Assembly (NCBI GenBank): GCA_030653635.1
Contig: JAURYZ010000093.1
Span: 1-10,462 of the forward strand
Reading direction: 5' to 3'
Length of the DNA stretch: 10,462 bases
Origin: Coriobacteriia bacterium
GTDB taxonomy: Bacteria; Actinomycetota; Coriobacteriia; Anaerosomatales; JAHIQC01
A program made the translations under genes and the position numbers. The notes under the pieces are model-generated. The model had not been told where the DNA came from and searched no databases. It saw only the letters and a list, made by a program, of their open reading frames with translations. Below, in pieces: positions 4,615 through 9,227 of this stretch (the first letter of the stretch is position 1; each line of letters opens with the position of its first letter).

Positions 4615-4878
4615 CTACCTACGACCCCTGCCATCAACGCGTCCGCTGACTACGGGCACTGTGTACGGGACCAAAGCCATCTCGCGGGCGCGCTTGACTG
4701 CCATCGAGAGGCTGTGCTGATGCTGGGCGCAGGTCCCAGTGACGCGACGGGGCTTGATCTTGCCACGGTCGGTCATGAACTTGCGGAGCATCTGCACATC
4801 CTTGTAATCGATGTACTCTGCTTTGTCCTTGCAAAACGCACAGTACTTGCGGCGCGGCTTGCGTGCGTAATCCGACAT
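4615..4878 (-). CDS. rpsR: 30S ribosomal protein bS18, zinc-ribbon form
   Basis: This 87-residue protein has the full bS18 core: [51 protein letters not shown]13, C16, C50 and H53 form the metal-binding (zinc-containing, C+) version of the fold. About 15 residues after ALVPY form a basic tail. bS18 pairs with bS6 on the platform of the small subunit, which fits rpsF being first in the same operon. The ATG at 4878 is preceded by AAAGGAGGAAAG, a near-ideal ribosome site. A tandem hairpin array lies just upstream, and the loop of the larger hairpin is complementary to that site, suggesting translational control. The DUF2232 gene starts four bases downstream. Confidence 0.97.
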
Positions 4879-4880
4879 CG

Positions 4881-4941
4881 CTTTCCTCCTTTCGTCTCAT
4901 CCGAGACGTTCACGCGACCGGCGGGAGGAGACCGCCGGTCG
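4881..4941 (-). promoter_or_regulatory. Tandem hairpins with loop complementary to the rpsR ribosome site
   Basis: In the ssb-rpsR gap the mRNA can form a perfect 10-base-pair stem (CGACCGGCGG at 4941-4932 with CCGCCGGTCG at 4924-4915). A 7-base loop UCUCCUC caps it. A second 6-base-pair hairpin (CGTCTC 4908-4903, GAGACG 4898-4893) follows. The ribosome site AAAGGAGGAAAG (4892-4881) comes next. Loop bases UCCUC, plus the adjoining stem C, are exactly complementary to GGAGGA in that site. A loop-to-SD pseudoknot could block rpsR translation. No uridine tract follows, so this is not an intrinsic terminator. Confidence 0.5.
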
Positions 4942-4953
4942 TTCACGATAGAA

Positions 4954-5373
4954 CTAGAACGGTATTTCGCTGTCATCCATGGGAGCTACCGAAGCAGCTG
5001 ACTCCTTGAAGCTTGAACCGCCCGAAGAGGACGAGCCGCCGTCACGAGAGGACATGAACTCAATCTCGTCGACGACAACTTCGACCTTGGAGCGCTTCTC
5101 GCCCTGTGGGGTCTCCCACGAGCTCCACCTGAGCTTGCCCTCGATGGCTACCTTGGATCCCTTGGAAAGGAACCGCGAGACCGCCTCGGCGCGGGTACCG
5201 AACATCGTCACATCGATGTAGTTCGGCTTATCTTCCCACTCGCCGGTCTGCTGGTTCTTCGCGCGGTCGTTGACCGCAACGCCCATCTTGAGTACCGCCA
5301 TACCGCCCGCTGTCGAGCGAAGCTCGGGGTCGCGAGTCAGGTTGCCGGTTATGGTCACTCGGTTGATGCTCAA
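4954..5373 (-). CDS. ssb: Single-stranded DNA-binding protein SSB
   Basis: This 139-residue protein is a typical bacterial SSB, which coats single-stranded DNA as a tetramer and recruits replication and repair enzymes. The OB-fold spans about residues 1-107, starting MSINRVTITGNLTRDPELR and including the YIDVTMFG and WSSWETPQGEKRSK segments. A flexible Gly/Ser linker (about 111-128) follows. The C-terminal tip DDSEIPF is the conserved acidic peptide that binds partner proteins. The start codon is TTG at 5373, with AAGGTGG five bases upstream; no ATG or GTG fits the conserved N-terminus. It is second in the operon, 67 bases after rpsF, with a hairpin in that gap. Confidence 0.97.
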   Translation of the reverse strand: MSINRVTITGNLTRDPELRSTAGGMAVLKMGVAVNDRAKNQQTGEWEDKPNYIDVTMFGTRAEAVSRFLSKGSKVAIEGKLRWSSWETPQGEKRSKVEVVVDEIEFMSSRDGGSSSSGGSSFKESAASVAPMDDSEIPF

Positions 5374-5425
5374 TTAAACCACCTTCTCATTCCGCTACGT
5401 CACTTGATGATCCGGACGTCACGCG

Positions 5426-5439
5426 GGTGTCAAGACACC
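5426..5439 (-). promoter_or_regulatory. Hairpin just after the rpsF stop
   Basis: GGTGTC and GACACC form a perfect inverted repeat with only two bases between them. As RNA it would be a 5-base-pair stem with a CUUG tetraloop, directly after the rpsF stop codon. No uridine run follows. It may be an RNA processing or mRNA-stability element; its role is unknown. Confidence 0.35.
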
Positions 5440-5440
5440 G

Positions 5441-5734
5441 CTAGTCGCGGTCTTCGCGACGGACGACCATGAAACGTACGACCGGATCGGTGATGCGAAG
5501 CACGCGGTCAATCTCGGCGATCGCCGAGGCGGTGGCGTGAAAGTCGATAACGGCGTAATCGCCGTCAGTGAGCTTGTCGATCTCGAATGCGAGACGACGT
5601 TTGCCCCAGTCATCGACGTTGTCGACAACGCCACCATCAGCGGTGATGAGCCCCTGAGCCTTCTCGAGCGTGGACGCACGCATCTCGTCGTCGAGGGTAG
5701 GGTTGAGCATAAGCATAAGTTCATAAGCCTTCAC
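5441..5734 (-). CDS. rpsF: 30S ribosomal protein bS6
   Basis: This 97-residue protein has the full length and ferredoxin-like fold of bS6. It opens MKAYELMLMLNPTLDDE, contains DNVDDWGKRRLAFEIDKLTDGDYAVIDF in the middle (written here only by its conserved stretches WGKRRLAFEI and DGDYAVIDF), and ends RITDPVVRFMVVRRED. bS6 binds bS18 and 16S rRNA on the small-subunit platform. The start is GTG at 5734, preceded by AAGGGAGGTGA, one of the best ribosome sites in the window. It is the first gene of the ribosomal operon. An 81-base gap separates it from the M23 gene, with hairpins but no clear terminator, so read-through from the M23 gene is possible. Confidence 0.96.
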   Translation of the reverse strand: MKAYELMLMLNPTLDDEMRASTLEKAQGLITADGGVVDNVDDWGKRRLAFEIDKLTDGDYAVIDFHATASAIAEIDRVLRITDPVVRFMVVRREDRD

Positions 5735-5749
5735 TGGTTCACCTCCCTT

Positions 5750-5790
5750 GGGCTTTACGGCCCCGGGACAAGTGAAGGCTTCGCCCGGAG
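5750..5790 (-). promoter_or_regulatory. Structured rpsF leader, possible S6:S18 autoregulatory RNA
   Basis: Two overlapping pairings are possible in the leader. The first is CUCCGGG (5790-5784) with CCCGGGG (5767-5761). The second is GGGC (5763-5760) with GCCC (5753-5750) around loop CGUAAA. They share bases and exclude each other, and the second ends directly at the ribosome site. The shared segment carries a CCG triplet. Known S6:S18 leader RNAs feature a CCG bulge, so feedback by the bS6-bS18 complex is possible but unproven here. Confidence 0.3.
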
Positions 5791-5815
5791 CAGGAAATGA
5801 AGCTTACGGAGTGTA

Positions 5816-6835
5816 TCACCGCGCCACCGCGGTCGCAACATGATTGATTCGGCCTGAGACATCCGGGCCGCAGGAACGTCGTCGTCGCCACATGGGCCAC
5901 ATTGCGAGAGCTCCCACGGCCAATAGGCCGACAGCTTTGGCGGTCGCACCTTCGCGCCGAGACGTGAACGAAGCACGAGCCCACCTAGGGCCGTGAGCCG
6001 TACGGAACGCCTGGGGGCTGCTGTTCGCCACATGGAGGCGCGCGACTGCCGGATCACCGCTGGACTGCAGAGAGGTCGTCACGGCCTTGCGCGAAGTGGA
6101 CTCAAGAGCCTCTGTCGAGGCGCTAAGGGCGATCTTCCCGACCGAAACGGGAACCGGTGCTTCTGCCTGAGTGAACACCTGAGACGCAATGGCGGGTGAC
6201 ACTCCCGAGGGGTCGGCGTGGACTTGCGCGTCCGTTACCGACTCATGCGTCGCCTCGACCCGAGGGAGCGCCTGCGTGACAGGCACCGCAGGCAGCTGGG
6301 GCTCCTCTTGTATTGGAAGCGTCACCAAAGTGGGCGCAGGCGGTGCACCCAGAAGGGCCGTGGGATCAAGGTACCGATCGCCGCGACGCGCGCTCACGTG
6401 AAGATGCGGCGTCGACGTCGATGGATCGCCCGACTCGGCAATCATGCCGACCAAACCTCCGGCGTCGACTCTCTCCCCCGCCAACACCTGAGCCTCGGAC
6501 AGGGGTGACACCGTCACAAGTATTCCGTCATCGGTCGTGATGGTGAGGGCCAGAATGGTCCCCACGCTGCCGGGCACACGGCCCACGAAACTCACAATAC
6601 CGGCTGCCGGAGCGAGCACGGCCGAGCCGGTCGCACCGGCAAGGTCCACCCCAAGATGCGACACACTGCGCCCGTCACGCGTGTACGTCTCCCCATATCC
6701 GAGTGTGACCGGCGCCGCCAATTCAAGCGGCCATGCGGCACGGACAGGAGCAACGCCAACTGACGTGCAGGCGACCATCAGTACGACACCCAAGCGCAAA
6801 ACGCCCGGGGGCATAGCACGGTTGAATCTGAACAT
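5816..6835 (-). CDS. Secreted M23 (LytM-like) protein with C-terminal membrane anchor, likely SOS-controlled
   Basis: This protein of 339 residues is predicted to sit on the outer face of the membrane. Residues 1-33 form a signal peptide with a hydrophobic core (LGVVLMVACTSVGVAP) and a likely cut after VRA. The M23 domain spans about 45-165, with H60-x3-D64 (HLGVD) and PHLHV (H144, H146), the usual zinc ligands and first HxH histidine. The strand normally reading Y-x-H-L reads VSPLS here, so the other catalytic histidine appears to be missing. Peptidoglycan hydrolysis is therefore uncertain and a regulatory or binding role is possible. A Pro/Ala/Ser-rich linker (about 166-295) leads to a transmembrane helix (about 299-316), RRRR (317-320) and a short cytosolic tail. 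The ATG at 6835 follows AAGGGGTGG; an upstream TTG (6853) overlaps that site and was rejected. Two LexA-type boxes lie 48-108 bases upstream. Confidence 0.85.
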   Translation of the reverse strand: MFRFNRAMPPGVLRLGVVLMVACTSVGVAPVRAAWPLELAAPVTLGYGETYTRDGRSVSHLGVDLAGATGSAVLAPAAGIVSFVGRVPGSVGTILALTITTDDGILVTVSPLSEAQVLAGERVDAGGLVGMIAESGDPSTSTPHLHVSARRGDRYLDPTALLGAPPAPTLVTLPIQEEPQLPAVPVTQALPRVEATHESVTDAQVHADPSGVSPAIASQVFTQAEAPVPVSVGKIALSASTEALESTSRKAVTTSLQSSGDPAVARLHVANSSPQAFRTAHGPRWARASFTSRREGATAKAVGLLAVGALAMWPMWRRRRSCGPDVSGRINHVATAVAR

Positions 6836-6882
6836 AGAGCACCACCCCTTCAAGTCGCGCCGAGGGGTGGCGCATCCATCTA

Positions 6883-6896
6883 CGAACAGGTGTTCG
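6883..6896. promoter_or_regulatory. LexA (SOS) box 1
   Basis: CGAACAGGTGTTCG has two perfect 5-base arms CGAAC and GTTCG around four bases, and the arms extend by one A-T pair. It fits the Gram-positive and actinobacterial LexA operator CGAAC-N4-GTTCG, including the CGAACRNRYGTTCG form, at every position. It lies 48 bases before the M23 start codon. The flanking genes show no other likely target: the tRNA is terminated upstream and no plus-strand gene follows. Confidence 0.72.
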
Positions 6897-6929
6897 CTCG
6901 ACTACACCGAACTCCTCCTTTGGACGCGA

Positions 6930-6943
6930 CGAACGGCTGTTCG
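6930..6943. promoter_or_regulatory. LexA (SOS) box 2
   Basis: CGAACGGCTGTTCG again has intact CGAAC and GTTCG arms. It is centred 47 bases from box 1, about four and a half helical turns. A further CGAAC half-site at 6950-6954 makes an overlapping inverted repeat, GTTCGG-TCTG-CCGAAC (6939-6954). Tandem boxes suggest tight or cooperative LexA repression of the downstream M23 gene. Confidence 0.68.
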
Positions 6944-6978
6944 GTCTGCCGAACGGTCGATGCACTTCTCCAAGCGCG

Positions 6979-7009
6979 AAACAGAAAAGAGCCGCCCTCA
7001 AGGCGACTC
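6979..7009 (-). terminator. Rho-independent terminator of the tRNA-Gly unit
   Basis: On the minus strand GAGTCGCC (7009-7002) and GGCGGCTC (6996-6989) pair over 8 bases with one G-U pair. The loop has 5 bases and is followed by TTTTCTGTTT. It starts 11 bases past the tRNA CCA end. It separates the trk/tRNA transcription unit from the LexA boxes and the M23 gene. Confidence 0.85.
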
Positions 7010-7020
7010 TGTGGTTCCTG

Positions 7021-7096
7021 TGGAGCGGGCGACGGGATTCGGACCCGCGACCTAAAGCTTGGGAAGCTTTCGCTCTACCAACTGAGCTACACCCGC
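7021..7096 (-). tRNA. tRNA-Gly(CCC)
   Basis: A complete 76-base cloverleaf with encoded CCA. The acceptor stem GCGGGTG pairs with CGCCCGC (one G-U pair) and the discriminator is T. D-arm GCTC/GAGC encloses AGTTGGTA with the GG pair. Anticodon stem AAAGC/GCTTT encloses TTCCCAA, so the anticodon is CCC, reading GGG glycine codons. T-arm GCGGG/CCCGT encloses TCCGAAT. Position 55 in that loop is C where nearly all elongator tRNAs have U (pseudouridine), which is unusual. The other invariant T-loop bases (T54, C56, A58, C61) are present. A promoter-like element precedes the gene and a terminator follows it. Confidence 0.96.
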
Positions 7097-7105
7097 GCGT
7101 CGCGA

Positions 7106-7135
7106 ATTGTAATCCTAACCTGCCGAAAGCAGCAA
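7106..7135 (-). promoter_or_regulatory. Promoter-like element of tRNA-Gly
   Basis: TACAAT (minus strand, 7111-7106) lies nine bases before the first tRNA base, the right distance for a start site just ahead of the mature 5' end. TTGCTG (7135-7130) lies 18 bases upstream and matches three of six -35 positions. The element fills the short gap after the OB-fold gene, so the tRNA may be both independently transcribed and reached by read-through. Confidence 0.5.
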
Positions 7136-7137
7136 CT

Positions 7138-7731
7138 TCAGCGGCGGCGTGAAACGGGGCCCAGTGTCCGTGAGGCTTCGCCAGATCGGTGCATCGCATA
7201 CAGCAGCGCAGCTATCAAACAAAGTACAACCGCCAACCAGATCTTCCATGGCTTGACCTCGTCGATCACATGCCGACCCTGCACGTCCACGACGAGCTCA
7301 TCGGCATGGATGTCCATGTCGCCGCCGTGCTCGGCGCATGCGGCGTTGAAGACGCCCGTGATTGTCACGACGTCACCCTCATGCTTGTAGTCGCCGTAAT
7401 GCATGATGCGGGTGGTGAGCCCGGCTGGTAGCCAGACCGCCATGCCGGAGTTGAAGCCGCCCAAAGGCGCGCCCTCCTCCACGTTCTTGGCGTAGTAGGC
7501 GTCGTCATTGATGTGGATCCAGGCGTCCTCGCCTCTGACCATCACCTCGCCGATCGCTTCGCCCGTGAACTCGACCTTCCGGCCGTCGTAGTTCTTGGGC
7601 TGTTCGACGAGTCCTGCGCTATCGGGAAAGTTCGGGCTCGGCGTCAGCGCCAAGGCTGGCCCCTCTGGGGAACTCAGCCCCACGATGAGCAGGAGCGCCA
7701 CGAATCGCACTGCAATGCGTAGGCCCGACAT
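7138..7731 (-). CDS. Membrane-anchored OB-fold-like protein of unknown function
   Basis: I do not recognise a named family. The 197-residue product has an N-terminal hydrophobic segment (about 5-28, signal peptide or anchor ending in PALA). A beta-rich extracytoplasmic domain (about 45-152) follows, with an OB-fold-like pattern: DGRKVEFTGEAIGEVMVRG, then AWIHINDDAYY, then DVVTITGVFN. The protein ends with a single helix (about 162-180) and a basic tail with RRR. C132 and H135 lie in a CAEHGGDMDIHADE segment that could bind a metal; that is inference. The ATG at 7731 overlaps the trkH stop as TGATG and has AAGGGG six bases upstream. It is therefore probably co-translated with trkH, suggesting a link to potassium transport or to the same stress. 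A longer frame reaching 7806 lies inside trkH and was rejected. Confidence 0.75.
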   Translation of the reverse strand: MSGLRIAVRFVALLLIVGLSSPEGPALALTPSPNFPDSAGLVEQPKNYDGRKVEFTGEAIGEVMVRGEDAWIHINDDAYYAKNVEEGAPLGGFNSGMAVWLPAGLTTRIMHYGDYKHEGDVVTITGVFNAACAEHGGDMDIHADELVVDVQGRHVIDEVKPWKIWLAVVLCLIAALLYAMHRSGEASRTLGPVSRRR

Positions 7732-9227
7732 CAGCGTCCCCTTGCCATCGAGAAGAGGTATCCGCCAAGCGCGAAGACGGACATGAACTCCAAACGACCA
7801 AGCCACATGCCGAAGATGTAGACCACTTTCAGAAACTCGGGCATAGCCGGCGAGGTCAGGCCGCAGGACAACCCGGTGTTAGACACGGCCGAAACCGCTT
7901 CGAACGCCGAGGAGCTCAGATCGTAGCCATAGGCCACGCCAATTAGCGCCGTTATCATGTAGGCGCTCAGATAGCACAACGTGATGGTCATGACGGTGCG
8001 GACCATCGCGTCATCGAGCATGATTTCGCGGATATGGTGATATCGGGAGCGAATGACTGCCGATTCCGGGGAGATCATCTTGCGGATGTCCTGCACAAAC
8101 GCCTTGGTGATCACCCCGATGCGAATGCCTTTGATGCCGCCGGCGGTCGAGCACGCAGAGGCGCCAATGGCCATGACCACCGTGACCGCCAGCATGCCCA
8201 TCGGTCCCCACTGCGTCACGAAGGCCCTAGAGTACATGGTCGAATAGCCCGTCGTCGTGTGCCCCGACGCGAGTTGATAGAACACCTTGCGAAACAGCGT
8301 CATCGCCGTCGGATAGACCCCGGCCTTAGCTAGGGCGAACGTCGCTACGAGGGTCATAAGCGTCAGTGTGATCACGAATGAGAGCACTTCGATGTTGCGT
8401 ACGATCTCTTTGCGATTGCCGGTCCACATGGCCCAGTGCAACGCGAAGTTGAACGAGCCCGCGATGAATACCACGGCTGCGACGACCTCGTATGCCAGCG
8501 AGTGGAACCAGACCGTGTTGTAGCTCTGTGGCGCAAAACCGCCGGTACTCCAACCGCCCATGAATATCCAAAGGCCATGAAGGAGCGCACGGCTGGGCGC
8601 TTGACCCAGTGCAAGTCCGACACCCGACAGCGCTACCGTGCCCAGCACGAGCCACGTCAGTGAGATAAGCCAGATCGCCCGCGCGGTTTGAAGCACGTTG
8701 GGCAACAGGCGCTCGTCCTTGCCCTCACCTACATACACCTTGTATGCACCCGACGTGCCCTTGAACAGAAACGTGAGTGCGATCACGACGATGCCCTGGC
8801 CGCCGGCATACGTGAGCAGATGGCGCCACATGTTCAGGCCGTTGGCGATGTGGTCGAGGTCCTGCAAGAGATACAGTCCGGTCGTGGTATACCCACTCAT
8901 GACGTCGAACATCGCGTCAAGGTAGCTACCTTCGTGTCCTGACAGATAAAGCGGCAGACAACCCAGAAGCGTCGCCCACACCCATGAGCCTGCGGCGACG
9001 ACCAGCCCGTGGCTCCACGTGAGGTCCCGATCCGTCTTGCTTAAGATCTGGACCCCGAAGCCAAACACTAGGCACGCGGCGATACCGATCACGAAGTCGA
9101 GCGCGGTGTCCCACTCGTGATAGGCGATTGACGTCAGAAGTGGAATGGCCATCAAAAGGCCAACCCCGACGATGACCTTGCCGGTGTACTTGCCTACGAC
9201 GAGGTGGTCGCCAGCGCGAGGCTTCAC
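7731..9227 (-). CDS. trkH: Trk/Ktr-type potassium uptake channel subunit TrkH
   Basis: This 498-residue membrane protein is the ion-conducting subunit of a Trk/Ktr potassium (or sodium-coupled potassium) uptake system. It shows the four pore-loop repeats of the superfamily, with selectivity-filter segments TTTG (about 114-117), STGG (227-230), TTTG (324-327) and SNTG (449-452). The intramembrane loop GASACSTAGGIKGIR after the third repeat is also typical. About ten helices are visible. The start is uncertain. GTG at 9227 gives the natural family N-terminus but a poor ribosome site, and GTG at 9233 is close by. A TTG at 9284 would overlap the small membrane ORF by 41 bases in another frame. 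The stop overlaps the start of the OB-fold gene. RCK subunits that gate it are encoded immediately upstream. Confidence 0.95.
   Translation of the reverse strand: MKPRAGDHLVVGKYTGKVIVGVGLLMAIPLLTSIAYHEWDTALDFVIGIAACLVFGFGVQILSKTDRDLTWSHGLVVAAGSWVWATLLGCLPLYLSGHEGSYLDAMFDVMSGYTTTGLYLLQDLDHIANGLNMWRHLLTYAGGQGIVVIALTFLFKGTSGAYKVYVGEGKDERLLPNVLQTARAIWLISLTWLVLGTVALSGVGLALGQAPSRALLHGLWIFMGGWSTGGFAPQSYNTVWFHSLAYEVVAAVVFIAGSFNFALHWAMWTGNRKEIVRNIEVLSFVITLTLMTLVATFALAKAGVYPTAMTLFRKVFYQLASGHTTTGYSTMYSRAFVTQWGPMGMLAVTVVMAIGASACSTAGGIKGIRIGVITKAFVQDIRKMISPESAVIRSRYHHIREIMLDDAMVRTVMTITLCYLSAYMITALIGVAYGYDLSSSAFEAVSAVSNTGLSCGLTSPAMPEFLKVVYIFGMWLGRLEFMSVFALGGYLFSMARGR

Follow-up and report, generated by a model that had tools for sequence, protein, structure and literature searches.

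The stretch of DNA analysed here (the window, 10,462 nt) carries a gene for an M23-family envelope protein that is preceded by two boxes of LexA type. This raises the question whether the gene is controlled by LexA and, if so, what a protein with an M23 fold would contribute to the SOS response. The gene is an open reading frame of 339 aa with an ATG start on the minus strand (5816..6835), and its assignment to the M23 (LytM-fold) family is based on Pfam (PF01551), a structure model and fold matches. An alternative in-frame TTG start is present at 6853.

The proximal box CGAACAGGTGTTCG (6883-6896) and the distal box CGAACGGCTGTTCG (6930-6943), neither of which is assigned to a strand, both match CGAAC-N4-GTTCG exactly. 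They lie 47 nt apart, at upstream distances of 48-61 and 95-108 nt from the ATG at 6835. Both boxes are genuine, the window contains no further exact one, and the distances of 48-108 nt given in the original prediction could be confirmed. At the upstream side, the region is bordered by a terminator-like hairpin (6988-7010, minus strand) and a tRNA-Gly(CCC) gene (7021-7096, minus strand), which gives the boxes a short promoter region to themselves. A simple scan of positions 6700-7300 for a sigma-70-like promoter before the M23 gene gave no match. Between the tRNA gene and trkH, a protein without a Pfam or NCBIfam family is encoded (7138-7806), and it is found in the same place in several relatives.

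The frequency of the motif was examined in the window, in its own draft genome and in relatives. In the window, nine further matches with two mismatches bring the loose motif to 11 matches in all compared to 7.5 expected from shuffles, indicating no enrichment. The draft genome from which the window derives (1.52 Mb in 304 contigs) contains six exact boxes versus 10 places for the reversed control pattern, and the four boxes outside the window all lie inside long ORFs. In G001, a relative of the same genus, 10 exact boxes were found versus 10 for the reversed control, and in G039 the motif and the reversed control each occurred six times. Since the reversed control was as common as the motif in these three genomes, motif frequency was rejected as evidence. 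The claim that a chance origin of the boxes is very unlikely could therefore not be upheld from raw frequency, but it was borne out by their position and their conservation in relatives, and on these grounds the pair is more than a chance occurrence. Neither lexA nor recA was found in the draft genome, which is 64% complete, and therefore the LexA motif was tested in relatives.

Among the 41 genomes of the same order that were searched, the window's own included, 39 encoded a LexA DNA-binding domain. All 30 of the 39 lexA loci that were scanned had a box within one mismatch, which was exact in 26, and often two to four boxes were clustered before lexA. The motif CGAACRNNYGTTCG was present 6 to 8 times per genome in six near-complete genomes, compared to 0 to 6 times for the reversed control. 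The genes flanking these boxes included recA in all six genomes, genes for UvrD-like helicases in four and uvrA in two. Ten box-flanked proteins, nine from the six near-complete genomes and one from G001, were analyzed with Pfam and comprised one RecA, two UvrA, two UvrD-like and three PHP and polymerase III alpha proteins; the remaining two were a DUF6504 protein and a protein with a match below the cut-off only. DnaE2-type (PHP/polymerase) genes of the order are also fronted by a box, and the 10 exact boxes of G001 include the two that precede the M23 gene as well as single boxes at lexA and uvrA. Sharing of CGAAC-N4-GTTCG by lexA, recA and uvr genes, as had been anticipated, was indeed observed in the same-order relatives, with boxes at lexA, recA and uvrA. 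In one of these loci (L139:2013-2429), a DUF6504 gene with a box 47 nt upstream lies directly before a PHP/polymerase III alpha gene, and this pair is possibly part of a mutagenesis cassette. Another exact box, in G037, is located 111 nt upstream of an ORF (L141:2099-3049) that by eye resembles a DNA cytosine methyltransferase.

An ortholog of the M23 gene was identified in 37 of the 41 same-order genomes, and G003, G009, G018 and G022 contained no ortholog or a weak paralog only. When the search covered 300 nt upstream and 60 nt downstream of the estimated start, 32 of the 37 orthologs had a box within one mismatch. After addition of 20 further same-order orthologs from a class-wide search (n = 57), the box expected upstream of orthologs was found just before the M23 gene in 52, 42 of which had an exact box; the orthologs of G006, G012, G031, G035 and G038 had none within one mismatch. 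Fourteen families of the order have the M23 gene and 13 of them keep the box. In the 245 nt around the gene start, exact boxes of the 57 loci numbered 43 in 13,965 positions, compared with three in 465,353 positions of the surrounding DNA; one of these three is the M23 box of G062 itself. No box within one mismatch was found at nine M23 paralogs from nine genomes. The order-wide conserved box is the proximal one, and among the loci read the full pair at 47-nt spacing was observed only in the window and in G001. In 26 of 52 loci, the box is preceded at a distance of 39-70 nt by a CCGTTCGTC-like element (within one mismatch), compared to a mean of 1.1 in shuffled sequences, and the distal box of the window (element at about 6925-6945) contains such an element. 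Judged from its conserved boxes, the M23 gene is very probably under LexA control.

Outside the order, nine strong matches from the class-wide search (E 1e-41 or better) were taken as orthologs. All nine stand before rpsF, and in the vicinity of these genes no box within one mismatch was found. The lexA loci of seven of these nine genomes were read, and six of the seven had a box that was exact in three and otherwise within one mismatch. Because five of the 57 same-order orthologs and all nine orthologs from other orders are free of the box, the function of the M23 protein, as read from this distribution, is not dependent on LexA everywhere.

The M23 protein consists of a signal-like N-terminus, the M23 domain (about residues 29-166), a linker rich in Ala and Pro, and a C-terminal hydrophobic segment. 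Peptidase_M23 (PF01551, E 4.1e-14, residues 59-158, above the cut-off) was the only Pfam family identified, and no LysM domain was found. In the structure model the M23 domain reached a pLDDT of about 91-98, and most of the linker was below 60. The matches in the fold search were M23/LytM domains, with EnvC, ShyA and lysostaphin tied among the top structure matches (within one Z unit). Compared with G001, dN/dS was 0.29 overall, 0.17 for the M23 part, 0.47 for the linker and 0.43 for the tail; by these ratios the M23 domain is under purifying selection. A protein search, in which the 8000 best word-sharing candidates were scored, matched 21 proteins and gave no further information on function.

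An M23 envelope protein anchored by a C-terminal helix had also been predicted. Export, the M23 fold and a C-terminal hydrophobic segment are all supported, but in the window protein this segment is weak, with a mean hydropathy of 1.43 over 18 residues; in 35 orthologs with a complete C-terminus the values ranged from 1.08 to 2.86. The segment (about residues 296-313; 5897..5950, minus strand) is followed by RRRR and, based on hydropathy and on the model, in which a helix at residues 295-311 was obtained with moderate confidence, is a putative membrane anchor.

The active-site region (6398..6658, minus strand) was studied in an alignment of 37 orthologs and in profile alignments with solved M23 proteins. 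The zinc ligands H60 (6656-6658), D64 (6644-6646) and H146 (6398-6400) and the catalytic histidine H144 of the HxH motif (6404-6406), all on the minus strand, were invariant in the 37 orthologs. The protein thus shares the fold and the zinc ligands with LytM/lysostaphin-type M23 endopeptidases, but differs from them at the catalytic histidine of the YxHL motif. At this place it has a proline (P111; 6503-6505, minus strand), which profile alignments with two solved M23 proteins put opposite their second catalytic histidine. All 37 aligned orthologs have this proline; the nine M23 paralogs all have the histidine. H260 and H291 of LytM are termed essential in PMC5519744, and PMC6962226 describes that the activity of pseudoalterin is almost abolished by alanine at either equivalent histidine position. 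With a proline in place of the YxHL histidine throughout the family and the zinc ligands kept, an ordinary endopeptidase is doubtful, and the protein probably lacks ordinary catalysis.

The alternative that the gene encodes an active SOS-induced peptidoglycan endopeptidase despite the proline, which would loosen or remodel the wall or lyse badly damaged cells, would fit the invariant zinc ligands and HxH histidine, the purifying selection on the M23 domain, and the tie of active ShyA and lysostaphin with EnvC as best structure matches. Indeed, with the zinc ligands and one catalytic histidine kept, the protein may have some hydrolytic activity. An active endopeptidase of this kind is nevertheless considered improbable, given the proline in all 37 orthologs at a position where the equivalent histidines are described as essential (PMC5519744, PMC6962226).

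A non-hydrolysing M23 domain would have a counterpart in EnvC, which, with NlpD and ActS, is a non-catalytic LytM-domain activator of amidases, a role that for EnvC is also given in PDB titles. EnvC lacks the zinc ligands. The M23 protein differs from it in that the zinc ligands are kept, that an N-terminal export signal is predicted together with the putative C-terminal anchor, and that no coiled coil was seen.

Directly downstream of the M23 gene, and also on the minus strand, Pfam identified rpsF (5441-5734), followed by ssb (4954-5373) and rpsR (4615-4878). This rpsF-ssb-rpsR block (4615..5734) follows the M23 gene with unchanged gene order in 35 of the 37 loci, the contigs of the other two ending in the M23 gene; likewise, rpsF comes after the M23 gene in 19 of the 20 additional same-order loci, and in the remaining one the contig ends. 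Since no terminator was seen in the gap between the M23 gene and rpsF, read-through into ssb is possible, and SOS transcripts may run on into rpsF-ssb-rpsR and raise SSB. The arrangement is comparable to the SOS-controlled rpsF-ssb-rpsR operon of Bacillus subtilis (PMC5531588) in the order of the downstream genes and in that an SOS input might reach them from the upstream side. It differs in that the box is separated from these genes by about 1 kb, being located in front of the M23 gene, and is not found where that gene is missing.

It was therefore considered whether the box serves rpsF-ssb-rpsR, with SSB raised by read-through and the M23 gene a mere passenger in a long leader. The invariable position of the M23 gene before rpsF wherever the contig continues agrees with this, as does the description of B. 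subtilis rpsF, ssb and rpsR as one SOS-controlled operon (PMC5531588), but the distribution of the box argues against it. G003 and G018, two same-order genomes of one genus, have neither the M23 gene nor a box before rpsF, yet have boxes at lexA; as the absence of the M23 gene in both is probably a single loss event, this point is weak alone. In 24 other members of the class without an ortholog, an exact box within 1.5 kb of rpsF was found in none and one-mismatch sites were scattered near rpsF in three, whereas at lexA 23 of the 24 had a box within one mismatch and three had an exact one. In addition, the M23 domain is under selection, and rpsF appears to have a promoter of its own, as a putative promoter TTGCGA-N17-TACACT was recognized by eye over the M23 stop codon (5810..5838, minus strand). 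A box that serves the downstream genes with the M23 gene as passenger is thus unlikely. Since genomes lacking the M23 gene also lack the box before rpsF, the box belongs with the M23 gene in this order, although it could serve both the M23 gene and rpsF-ssb-rpsR. That the boxes arose by chance or are bound by a different regulator, as might be thought from the draft genome, where the reversed control outnumbers the exact boxes (10 versus six), and from the missing excess of loose matches in the window, is extremely improbable in view of the box before 52 of 57 orthologs and its identity with the boxes at lexA and recA.

In 36 of the 39 lexA loci of the order, nine of which supplied the seeds for this count, a YneA/ChiZ-like LysM gene is located divergently from lexA (e.g. 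L055:886-1374 and L042:881-1309). Most of the encoded proteins have a hydrophobic segment before the LysM domain, and of four that were analyzed with Pfam, two passed the LysM cut-off, including that of G001, and two remained below it. In Bacillus, yneA is also located beside lexA. With this LysM gene already present beside lexA in the same genomes, the M23 protein would add a second envelope protein to the SOS response and would not be the division inhibitor otherwise missing in the order.

YneA of Bacillus, ChiZ of mycobacteria and SosA of Staphylococcus are described as SOS-induced membrane division inhibitors (PMC6851548, PMC13396833). The M23 protein resembles them in its SOS-type control, which here is predicted, in its membrane anchor, which here is putative, and in having a part outside the membrane; according to the same sources YneA and ChiZ also carry a wall-related domain, as the M23 protein does. 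It differs in its M23/LytM fold where the others have LysM or none, in the C-terminal instead of N-terminal position of the anchor, in its length of about 340 aa, and in the location of its gene before rpsF and not beside lexA. The LysM protein beside lexA is closer to YneA than the M23 protein is. The original prediction of a distinct damage-inducible wall or division factor is supported as far as the LexA-type box and an exported protein with an M23 fold are concerned, but the protein is not a plain SOS peptidase and not clearly the division inhibitor of the order. The functional part of the prediction needs to be changed because of P111, the LysM gene beside lexA and the running of the gene into rpsF-ssb-rpsR.

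The following mechanism is proposed. LexA would repress the M23 gene via the proximal box, helped in this genus by the second box 47 nt away, and DNA damage would lift this repression as part of the SOS response. The product is predicted to be exported and held in the membrane by its C-terminal helix, with the M23 (LytM-fold) domain outside. Because the YxHL histidine is a proline while the zinc ligands and HxH stay, this domain is most likely a binding module for zinc and for either peptidoglycan or a partner protein that does not carry out ordinary hydrolysis. In this way the protein might tune wall hydrolases or septal wall synthesis during DNA repair, and it would work beside the YneA/ChiZ-like LysM protein, not in its place. 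SSB levels might rise at the same time by read-through of the SOS transcript. As a whole, this explanation of a LexA-controlled, non-hydrolysing, anchored M23 protein that tunes the envelope during repair has about an even chance of being correct, and for a role of the protein in a wall or division checkpoint the chance is put slightly below one half. More tentatively, the order could have placed an older, zinc-keeping pseudo-M23 protein under LexA and so gained a second SOS envelope arm, together with a coupling to SSB by read-through.

A few small membrane proteins are known to pass the signal of DNA damage on to the envelope. In an open-licence library, no report was found of an SOS-controlled M23 protein, nor a paper joining LexA, SOS and Coriobacteriia, or M23 peptidase, DNA damage and LexA. 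If the proposed mechanism is true, a single SOS response would be able to act on the envelope through two effectors, and for the second a concrete protein is named. The conserved change from histidine to proline marks a well-defined M23 family with catalysis in doubt, and in this group of Coriobacteriia the presence of the switch of the DNA-repair genes before an inactive-looking surface protein that resembles a wall-cutting enzyme is suggestive of a second connection from DNA damage to the envelope.

In relatives, too, a promoter-like element of rpsF (TTGCNN-N17-TGATACACT, by eye) overlaps or follows the M23 stop codon. This position accounts for the classes of M23-rpsF gaps, which in 35 loci measured 76-83 nt in 19, 141-172 nt in 12, 43 nt in one and -4 to 4 nt in three, and for the conserved C-terminal residues of many M23 orthologs. 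A conserved VAAAVGR-like tail had been considered as a degron or binding motif, but this was rejected since its codons coincide with the promoter-like sequence; the tail is absent in orthologs whose M23 stop codon lies further upstream. The promoter-like element is followed by a conserved rpsF leader, and the two together take up 5735-5838 in the window. The leader recalls the S6:S18 autoregulatory RNA leader, but Rfam gave no match at the gathering threshold and one meaningless weak match in 5700-5900. In three loci of one family (L090, L098 and L099, from G002, G017 and G032), the M23 ORF runs through both the rpsF promoter and the leader, which leaves the gap of -4 to 4 nt.
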